The translations under genes were made by a program, and so were the position numbers. DNA of 23,201 nucleotides from a virus: IMG/VR virus record IMGVR_UViG_3300048839_000034, positions 1 through 23,201 of that record. One strand, written 5' to 3'. Positions 3,412 through 7,743 of this stretch are shown in pieces (within the stretch, counting starts at the first letter, position 1; each line of letters starts with the position of its first letter). A model generated the notes under the pieces. That model made no database searches and was not told where the DNA came from. It was given only the letters and a program-made list of their open reading frames with translations.

Positions 3412-3966
3412 TCACACCTTCTCCTGAGCCCGAATGTCGTCCTTCTGGCGTGATCCGAAAGACGAACCCATCCAGAACTCACGCGCGCCAACGATTGTCG
3501 CAACGGCCGCGATCATGACGATGTTGTCCAAGGTCGATTCGGTGATCTTCCCGGCCCAGGCAAGCAGGCCGATGCTGGTCCAGGACGAAAAGATCAGCAC
3601 CAACGTCAGGAACTCAATGAAGGTGAAGCGTCCAACGACGGTACGGACGTCCTGCATCTGAGCATTCTCGACCGCATAGCGGCGAGCACGATCGACACTT
3701 TCCTCGTGCGCCTCGAAGATGTCGAACCAATTGGCTTGTACAGCCTCACGAACGGCTTGCGCTGCCTGCGGATCTGCTGAGATGATCTCGGCAAGAGCCT
3801 GCTCGTTCTGCGCCCCCGTGGCCGCCTTTGCAACTTCCAAGACCTTCTCGACGGTCTGAGCTTGGCGTTCGGCCTTTTCCCCGTTTTTCCCCCACATTCG
3901 GACGAGATCAGGGACGACATTCAGCAATGCCGGAATGGCGAGTTTCGCAACGGGTGGCAGGGGCAT
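3412..3966 (-). CDS. Possible separate holin-like product from internal start (184 aa)
   Basis: Within the lysis gene the codon for Met204 (3966-3964) is preceded by AAAGGAG at 3973-3979 with a spacer of six bases, an excellent ribosome binding site. Starting there yields MPLPPVAKLAIPALLNVVPD... to the common stop, a complete holin-like protein. It has an amphipathic N-terminal segment, a long polar helical region and two predicted membrane helices near its residues 114-138 and 147-166. Two helices with a short connecting turn would put both ends on the same side of the inner membrane. Its expression as a separate protein is inference. The alternative is that the site is a relic of formerly separate genes. 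Confidence 0.6.
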   Translation of the reverse strand: MPLPPVAKLAIPALLNVVPDLVRMWGKNGEKAERQAQTVEKVLEVAKAATGAQNEQALAEIISADPQAAQAVREAVQANWFDIFEAHEESVDRARRYAVENAQMQDVRTVVGRFTFIEFLTLVLIFSSWTSIGLLAWAGKITESTLDNIVMIAAVATIVGAREFWMGSSFGSRQKDDIRAQEKV

Positions 3967-4575
3967 TTCGGACTCCTTTGGAATGTGGATCGTCTCGATC
4001 GGCGCAGGCTTGTTGGTAGAAGCACCAAGAACTTGTCGTGCGATTTCCCAGCGGCGCTCACGATCGGCAGCGCCGTTCTGACCACCGTTGATGCGCAGCG
4101 TGATCAACTTGAAGTCGCCGCGATCGGCCAGTTCGTTGAGACCTTTCCAGTCCCAATAATCGGCTGCCGACCATGCCGCCCACTTCGGCTCTGCGAGCTT
4201 TTCAGGATCAGCCTCGAAGTCCGGGACAGCCGAACCAAAGTGCTTCCGAAGCCGGTCTCGCACTGCGGCGTGATTGAACCTGCCAGTGGTTTGAATGAGT
4301 CCGTGGCCTTTGTAACGCTCACCGTCGCCGGGCTGCGTGTTCCCTAGATCCTTGCGCCCTTCGTAGCGTCGCTGCGCTGGCGTAGGCCTCCAAATTTCTT
4401 TGCTGTGCTTGAGAGAAACGCTCTCGTGGCCGATCTGCGCAAGAAATGCCGCGAGTCTGTCCGGCGTGTTGATCTTGTAGAAGCCACATGCCTCGGACAG
4501 CAGCGGCGCGTACAGGTCGGCACGTTCTTGCGTGCAACCTGTCGCAGCCTTTAATGTGTCGGGGGTGAGAAGCAT
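3412..4575 (-). CDS. GH19-type endolysin fused in frame to a holin-like membrane protein
   Basis: 387 residues, ATG 4575-4573 with TAAGGA just upstream. Residues 1 to about 186 form a GH19 chitinase-like lysozyme domain. AAFLAQIGHESVS carries the expected general acid Glu51. Glu60 is a candidate second acid. RYKGHGLIQTTGRFNHA (88-104) and RINGGQNG (161-168) are family signatures. A linker (187-203) leads directly into a second module, residues 204-387. This has a mixed, charged helical part, two predicted membrane helices (about 317-341 and 350-369) and the tail FWMGSSFGSRQKDD, as in small phage holin-like proteins. Free GH19 endolysins normally end near residue 185, so this is a fusion. The enzyme would cut cell wall peptidoglycan during lysis. 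The second module begins at its own Met with a strong internal ribosome binding site. Confidence 0.85.
   Translation of the reverse strand: MLLTPDTLKAATGCTQERADLYAPLLSEACGFYKINTPDRLAAFLAQIGHESVSLKHSKEIWRPTPAQRRYEGRKDLGNTQPGDGERYKGHGLIQTTGRFNHAAVRDRLRKHFGSAVPDFEADPEKLAEPKWAAWSAADYWDWKGLNELADRGDFKLITLRINGGQNGAADRERRWEIARQVLGASTNKPAPIETIHIPKESEMPLPPVAKLAIPALLNVVPDLVRMWGKNGEKAERQAQTVEKVLEVAKAATGAQNEQALAEIISADPQAAQAVREAVQANWFDIFEAHEESVDRARRYAVENAQMQDVRTVVGRFTFIEFLTLVLIFSSWTSIGLLAWAGKITESTLDNIVMIAAVATIVGAREFWMGSSFGSRQKDDIRAQEKV
3964..3979 (-). promoter_or_regulatory. Internal ribosome binding site in the lysis gene
   Basis: Read on the minus strand the sequence is AAAGGAGTCCGAAATG. The first seven bases match the 16S rRNA anti-Shine-Dalgarno pairing region, and the ATG follows after six bases. 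In the long frame the same bases encode Lys-Glu-Ser-Glu-Met in the linker between the endolysin and holin-like modules. A chance site of this quality placed exactly at a domain border is unlikely. Confidence 0.75.
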
Positions 4576-4603
4576 TGGTTCCTTACCGAGCCTGGAAAGT
4601 ATT

Positions 4604-7298: not shown

Positions 7299-7510
7299 CA
7301 GTCTTCCTCGCCGGCCGCTTCAGCCCGCACGCGGGAAGCGATTTCCTTGCCCATTGCGTCACCCGTCCCTTCAATCACTTCAACCGGATAGCCGTGCGAC
7401 AGGAAGTGCTCGAAGTTCAAGCCATGCCGCTGGAACCACATCCGAGCGCCACGGACGCAAAGCCGCGCATCGCGGACATGCTTGATGGTCACGATCAGTT
7501 CGGTCGTCAT
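7298..7510 (-). CDS. Small conserved tail-module protein (70 aa)
   Basis: MTTELIVTIKHVRDARLCVRG... is a compact, probably helical protein: RGARMWFQRHGLNFEHFLSHG, then PVEVIEGTGDAMGKEIASRV. I recognise this pattern (a KHVR.A..C.RG start and a TGDA..... end) from small proteins encoded directly before gpJ-like tip genes in siphoviruses of Gram-negative bacteria. Its start overlaps the upstream stop by four bases and its stop overlaps the tip gene start, implying coupled translation. A tip assembly role is inferred from this constant position. No enzymatic motif is seen. Confidence 0.78.
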   Translation of the reverse strand: MTTELIVTIKHVRDARLCVRGARMWFQRHGLNFEHFLSHGYPVEVIEGTGDAMGKEIASRVRAEAAGEED

Positions 7511-7743
7511 TTCTTCCCACCGTCGCCTTCAATGCTCGTGGTGCGGTAGTTCCCGATGCCGAGGACCATCCAGTCTTCCGACCAGCAGTCGCCGAACGTG
7601 ACTGCTTGCGGTGTGCCCTCGTCAGCTTGCGGAAAGTCGAACTCGTCGAACGCCGCAGGCTTCGGCGGCTGTACCTTCGGCATGAGCGCAGCCGAGATGA
7701 CGACGCTGGCGACGAGTAGGATGATGCCGGTAACGATGTCCAT
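7507..7743 (-). CDS. Small membrane-anchored tail-module protein (78 aa)
   Basis: The N-terminus MDIVTGIILLVASVVISAALMP is one hydrophobic helix (about residues 3-21). The rest is soluble: KPAAFDEFDFPQADEGTPQA, then VTFGDCWSEDWMVLGIGNYRTT. Small proteins with an N-terminal helix followed by a FPQ.DEGTPQAV.FGD pattern are common next to gpL/gpJ-like genes and are thought to help tip assembly, comparable in place to lambda gpI. GAGG before the ATG at 7743 gives the start. The stop overlaps the next start (ATGA). Confidence 0.78.
   Translation of the reverse strand: MDIVTGIILLVASVVISAALMPKVQPPKPAAFDEFDFPQADEGTPQAVTFGDCWSEDWMVLGIGNYRTTSIEGDGGKK

Follow-up and report, generated by a model that had tools for sequence, protein, structure and literature searches.

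In the canonical model of phage lysis, the timing of lysis and the delivery of the muralytic enzyme are the tasks of separate proteins. The lambda holin is a dual-start protein, the longer form of which, S107, carries an extension of two residues and slows triggering compared with the shorter S105. In two-polypeptide endolysins, the short product is the C-terminal part of the enzyme, typically a wall-binding one. These endolysins, as described in a survey of Gram-positive and mycobacterial phages, use an internal start to make two in-frame products with one stop; Gram-negative phages were excluded from that survey because internal starts were thought unlikely in their endolysins (PMC9430671). 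The endolysins Enc34 ORF39, M4Lys and that of Siskin are described as having C-terminal membrane helices (PMC8943055, PMC7143992, PMC6498227). The N-terminus of M4Lys is predicted to be periplasmic and this protein, when overproduced, lysed E. coli without a holin (PMC7143992); the Siskin endolysin is predicted to adopt an N-in, C-in topology (PMC6498227). A natural holin-endolysin fusion of the TpeE family is described for Clostridium sporogenes (PMC9527704). Finally, for TeaA, a holin of the phage ICP1, it is reported that expression of this protein on its own causes a drop in the proton motive force and lysis of V. cholerae, and the authors placed it in the GTA_holin_3TM family via remote homology and synteny (PMC7182436).

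In the window analyzed here (the entire stretch of 23,201 nucleotides, positions 1 to 23,201 of the IMG/VR virus record IMGVR_UViG_3300048839_000034), these two tasks appear to be tied together in one gene. The fused endolysin-holin gene occupies positions 3412..4575 on the (-) strand and is delineated by the open frame (387 codons plus stop) and by homologues with the same plan. A reading made from the sequence alone (hereafter the sequence-only reading) had noticed an endolysin and a holin-like protein in one frame without a stop; indeed, all 387 codons are open, and a PHROG profile search started with the window protein identifies both halves, with residues 1-210 matching the endolysin family PHROG 181 (5e-58) and residues 213-381 matching PHROG 1544 (1.7e-7). 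Searches of Pfam and NCBIfam with the same protein detect nothing above a cut-off. The ATG of the full-length product is preceded, at a distance of 4 bases, by a Shine-Dalgarno-like TAAGGA (4580..4585, (-)). Both frames ahead of the fused gene match tail families in PHROG, and the short frame behind it matches PHROG 1084, a family of unknown function. The record IMGVR_UViG_3300048592_000081 is 100% identical to the window over the 23,139 bases compared and may not be an independent sample.

The enzyme half (about residues 1-186; 4018..4575, (-)) is a GH19 endolysin domain. In the AlphaFold2 model, the pLDDT of ten-residue blocks in this domain is mostly 93-98, with one block at 79, and a fold search superposes PDB 9ms7 on the enzyme half at 1.5 A over 183 columns, followed by 9eoi and 4ok7; profile comparison identifies the same three PDB entries and thus also points to GH19. 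A BFVD fold search lists 50 of 125 matches, and those with names are either GH19 proteins or proteins of other kinds. Glu51, Glu60 and Glu72 are invariant across the window protein, its fused relative L032 and two free endolysins, that is, the conserved acidic residues of GH19 are present. A hydropathy scan detects no hydrophobic N-terminal segment above the threshold in the enzyme half.

The holin half (residues 204-387; 3415..3966, (-)) is homologous to TeaA throughout. A tblastn search aligns ICP1 TeaA over 98% of the length of this half with 28.9% identity (E 7e-7), and a profile-profile comparison of the fused holin clade with the stand-alone TeaA family (hhalign) yields a match at 99.6%, E 6e-24. 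PHROG 1544 is matched by TeaA itself at 1.7e-53 and, at E up to 0.05, by 10 of the 13 fusions scanned (all fusions other than L057 and L066), with L033, L048 and L049 giving no match. In Pfam, neither the window protein nor ICP1 TeaA matches GTA_holin_3TM (PF11351) at E up to 1, and searches started with stand-alone holins (four, then five) produce only matches under the curated cut-offs; in PDB, no relative of the holin family is detected at E 0.001 (the best match is at 0.027).

In the AlphaFold2 model of the fusion (30 sequences; mean pLDDT 81.8, pTM 0.54), the enzyme is predicted firmly and the linker (188-206) is disordered; a helix (208-227) comes next, then a small domain made of helices and two further helices (319-340 and 346-386), with pLDDT <70 in parts of the holin half. 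In the window protein, the N-terminal helix of the holin (residues 208-227; 3895..3954, (-)) scores too low to pass the hydropathy threshold, and the predicted transmembrane helix at residues 319-340 (3556..3621, (-)) is accompanied by a hydropathy peak at 310-328; the scan of the holin half yields a single segment above the threshold. A helix at about residues 346-368 (3472..3540, (-)), which is also under the threshold, is probably the second one of the hairpin and extends into a charged C-terminal tail, suggesting that the tail lies inside. Taken together with the enzyme half that has no visible export segment, this predicted topology would place the enzyme on the cytoplasmic side before triggering, an assignment that is not certain given the periplasmic N-terminus predicted for M4Lys. 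Because M4Lys lyses cells alone and its enzyme side is predicted to be periplasmic, entry independent of a holin should be kept in mind.

Alignments of the holin alone against IMG/VR recover, in addition to the window gene, the fusions L011, L013, L014, L019, L032, L033, L034, L039, L040, L041, L048 and L049, and a search with the GH19 half as the query adds L057 and L066. Thus, IMG/VR contains 15 distinct fused endolysin-holin genes, the window gene included, with five kinds of enzyme. The near-duplicates L012, L016, L018, L025 and L054, along with a 68-residue remnant (L042) and a distant 121-residue frame (L055), were dropped from the tree and the counts. The enzymes belong to GH19 in four fusions, to phrog_90 in six (presumably, the lambda-R type, GH104), to phrog_7 in three (which we take to be the T4-lysozyme type, GH24) and to phrog_873 in one; the remaining enzyme, that of L048, we take to be SLT-like, with its best matches being phrog_4928 (unknown) and phrog_196 (baseplate hub).

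The sequence-only reading had proposed counting joined against separate relatives. The tree compares the 15 fused genes from IMG/VR with 14 separate holins (4 from INPHARED and 10 from IMG/VR, which are not all of the known relatives). A single branch splits the fused from the separate holins, with support of 99/97, and is present in 98% of the bootstrap trees. Among the fused holins, at least 9 changes of enzyme class are required, a figure that applies to this tree, in which 10 of the 26 inner branches have support <80. Exchange of the enzyme is apparent in three pairs of well-supported sisters that carry different enzymes, namely L033/L034, L041/L048 and L019/L049, the holins of which are 76%, 60% and 59% identical, respectively.

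The sequence-only reading held that, in known phages, the two functions come from separate genes, and the deposited genomes bear this out. When the full-length fusions of the window, L039 and L041 (a query set without the SLT-like and phrog_873 fusions) were compared with INPHARED by tblastn, none of the 1204, 553 and 1016 matching records, respectively, covered 80% of the query, and the idea of a fusion widespread among deposited phages was therefore rejected. The window protein is matched most widely, over 68%, by mycobacteriophage lysin A records, one of which, when inspected, was found to encode a protein of 467 residues with a top hydropathy of 1.29 and no segment above the threshold, with a separate holin gene behind it. 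A search for separate relatives of the holin matched 125 INPHARED records. The holin half of L034 has no match in phages and none in plasmids, and that of L011 matches, among phages, 30 Vibrio phage records, all at E 0.1 or above. Two scans of genome contigs, with one and two peptide patterns, identified no relative and, given how few patterns they rested on, leave room for prophages. Across the collections searched, all members of the fused clade come from IMG/VR contigs. The record number of L066 resembles what we take to be isolate-genome numbering, and this fusion may come from a prophage of a sequenced isolate. Among the best 80 of at least 591 GH19 candidates in IMG/VR, 74 end within 30 residues past the matched domain and five carry at least 100 further residues; in two of these five, the addition is this holin.

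The internal start codon, ATG (Met204; 3964..3966, (-)), at which the presumed free holin would begin, is located six bases behind a Shine-Dalgarno-like AAAGGAG (3973..3979, (-)), so that both the motif and the good spacing reported in the sequence-only reading are confirmed; the AAGGAG part of this signal encodes Lys-Glu in frame. In all 15 fusions, the holin part begins with a start codon (14 ATG and 1 GTG). Shine-Dalgarno matches of at least 5 bases are found at 12 of the 15 holin starts compared with 3 of the 241 remaining ATG/GTG codons in frame (Fisher P 1.6e-15) and, in a smaller set of 11 genes, at 9/11 compared with 4/191. The holin starts of L013 and L066 have only a four-base match, and that of L011 has no match of four or more bases. 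A chance origin of the plan was considered and rejected, given that 14 other distinct genes share it and that the internal Shine-Dalgarno signal is enriched. By sequence signal, the in-frame internal start, ribosome-binding site and shared stop of two-polypeptide endolysin genes are present.

We regard it as somewhat probable that this is a two-product lysis gene, which would give rise to a membrane-tethered endolysin-holin and, from the internal ATG, to a free holin, with the two forms assembling together and playing a role in timing. That one gene could yield both a tethered fusion and a free holin had already been suggested in the sequence-only reading; judging by the sequences, this appears to be the best interpretation, and the relatives strengthen it. 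Also in its favor, searches for three endolysin families and the holin in the records of 12 of the 15 fusions (all but L011, L034 and L057; the records may be fragments) identify phrog_7 in 3, phrog_90 in 4 and phrog_181 in 3 records, in each case at the fused gene, so that none of the 12 records contains a second member of these families; the records with the SLT-like and phrog_873 enzymes have no phrog_7, phrog_90 or phrog_181 match, and the searches did not extend to the enzyme families of L048 and L049. The holin profile has exactly one match in each of the 12 records, again at the fused gene. Under this proposal, the full-length product would be an endolysin with a complete TeaA-type holin as its C-terminus and the enzyme would, by virtue of the C-terminal holin, be anchored to the inner membrane, whereas ribosomes starting at the internal ATG would make the holin alone. 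The long and short forms would probably mix within one holin assembly. No export signal is visible in the enzyme, which would therefore be expected to remain on the cytoplasmic side of the membrane up to holin triggering; upon opening of the membrane, the tethered enzyme would find itself at the edge of the hole, beside the wall. The bulky N-terminal enzyme would probably slow triggering, like lambda S107 compared with S105, in which case the time of lysis would depend in part on the proportion between the two products. The likeness to lambda consists in the two starts and in the expected delay of the shorter form by the longer one; the difference is that the extension in the window protein is 203 residues long and contains an enzyme. 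A broader interpretation, for which we would stop just short of even confidence, is that the clade represents a lysis device that is portable and encoded in one gene, in which the muralytic enzyme is a covalent subunit of a TeaA-type holin, such that enzyme delivery would be part of the lesion. The full-length protein would then serve both as the delay element and as the enzyme, the internal-start form would be the effector holin, and the chassis would keep the fusion and the second start while at least five enzyme classes are exchanged.

An alternative that we consider unlikely, albeit deserving serious attention, is that only the full-length protein is made and functions as a tethered endolysin of the Enc34/M4Lys kind, with the internal start being an unused remnant of a formerly separate holin gene. 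Endolysins with C-terminal membrane helices do exist, as Enc34 and M4Lys demonstrate, and the internal signal is usually translated as Lys-Glu or Gln-Glu, so that part of it could reflect the peptide rather than the signal. These peptides make a Shine-Dalgarno-like sequence likely even under synonymous recoding: when the eight codons before the start are recoded in this manner, a mean of 8.3 of the 15 genes retain such a match compared with the 12 observed (P 0.024, a weak result from a stricter control). The signal persists, however, in holins that are just 19-58% identical to one reference member, and is mostly stronger than that of the first start (medians of -8.2 and -5.8 kcal/mol, respectively, Wilcoxon P 0.011, with some of the first starts being uncertain). 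The known endolysins of this kind, namely those of Enc34, M4Lys and Siskin, resemble the window fusion in combining an N-terminal enzyme with C-terminal membrane helices and no distinct N-terminal export signal. Enc34 is reported to encode a PHA02564-family enzyme with a two-helix membrane part, next to a separate lambda-like holin gene, whereas the window fusion joins a GH19 enzyme, set apart from the PHA02564 family by its profile and fold matches, to a complete TeaA-type holin. Furthermore, the accessible parts of the three reports mention no internal start within the endolysin genes, in contrast to the window fusion with its internal start signal.

It is also conceivable, although rather improbable, that the holin-like half serves as an anchor or as an antiholin, with the hole being made by the product of another gene, for example, a small protein with one TM of the kind encoded near several fusions. 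Small genes with one TM, coiled-coil-like by eye, are located near 7 of the 15 fusions (L011, L019, L039, L040, L041, L049 and L066); genes of this type were recorded at L011:2237-2536, L140:3156-3476, L039:1542-1865, L040:1324-1740, L041:1417-1704, L049:1557-1856, L066:3101-3361 and L141:9669-10079, the last of which shows weak PHROG matches to a hemolysin (0.0098) and an Rz-like spanin (0.012). Possible roles of these genes are those of antiholins, spanins or holins. The window sequence is also part of contig G001, where a small one-TM gene is found about 19 kb away from the fused gene, but no such frame with the orientation of the fused gene was identified within 2.4 kb before or 3.0 kb after the window fusion. 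Apart from the fusion, the most hydrophobic frame on the coding strand of the window (7507-7743) matches a tail assembly family. Moreover, the full-length homology of the C-terminal half to TeaA, a protein that collapses the proton motive force, argues against this alternative.

The linker (residues 187-203; 3967..4017, (-)), which ends with PKESE ahead of Met204, was delineated from the AlphaFold2 model and the junction peptides. It is predicted to be disordered (pLDDT <50 at residues 188-206) and is Pro/Ala-rich in several members, which is compatible with the fusion being a precursor that is cut in the linker by a protease into a free endolysin and a free holin. Nevertheless, this scenario appears very improbable because, by eye, the linkers share no motif besides the Lys/Gln-Glu that encodes the start signal, and the internal start would be redundant.

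Between the fused frames on the two contigs L011 and L012, 16 codons differ synonymously and 1 nonsynonymously, and one whole linker codon is inserted or deleted in frame, a pattern that looks like purifying selection on the joined frame. The sequence-only reading had also entertained that the endolysin lost its stop recently or that two genes were joined artificially; both options, the latter covering errors of sequencing as well as of assembly, can be dismissed with near certainty: separate endolysin and holin genes can indeed be two bases apart, as in Vibrio phage 1.228.O, where an M15 peptidase gene ends two bases ahead of the stand-alone holin gene, but 15 divergent genes share the same plan and their holins form one clade, the window sequence is identical on two contigs, and L011 and L012 retain the frame despite the in-frame codon indel.

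The two-product lysis gene proposed here thus has several partial precedents. In ICP1, TeaA is a separate gene product of 182 residues, whereas in the window its relative is the C-terminal half of the endolysin gene. The TpeE fusion, as outlined in the accessible part of its report, likewise combines holin and endolysin in one polypeptide, but the order is the opposite, holin first, the holin belongs to a different family, the host is clostridial, and no second start is mentioned there. The two-polypeptide endolysins share with the window fusion the two in-frame products (predicted in the present case) and the common stop. The short product in the window is a TeaA-like holin, unlike the wall-binding domain of those endolysins, and the phages that carry the fusion may infect Gram-negative bacteria. 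What is new compared with Enc34/M4Lys, TpeE and the two-polypeptide endolysins is a complete holin on an endolysin, with its own internal start; searches of the open-access literature yielded no report of such a fusion or of enzyme exchange on an endolysin-holin fusion. A fusion gene with the holin as a presumed second product provides a direct means to test if diffusion of the enzyme through the holin lesion is required at all, and if an enzyme in fused form can act as an antiholin. With different enzyme heads on the same holin, the clade also amounts to a natural modular lysin, in which the membrane part is constant.

Several minor observations were made along with this analysis. At positions 1-168 of the window, a 42-base unit occurs four times in perfect tandem, and the second contig of the window phage begins inside the same repeat, 62 bases further in; hence, an assembly break seems to mark the start of either contig. 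Outside the window, the same phage encodes a terminase-like frame of 1050 residues (L141:11935-15087) that, by eye, appears to be interrupted by an intein-like stretch. In L042, a lysozyme-like frame stops and is followed by a 68-residue frame (2435-2641) with a remnant of the fused holin C-terminus, and this locus is probably a decayed fusion. The GH19 endolysins L127, L129 and L134 have other C-terminal hydrophobic segments, which suggests that enzyme-membrane fusions may extend beyond this holin clade.
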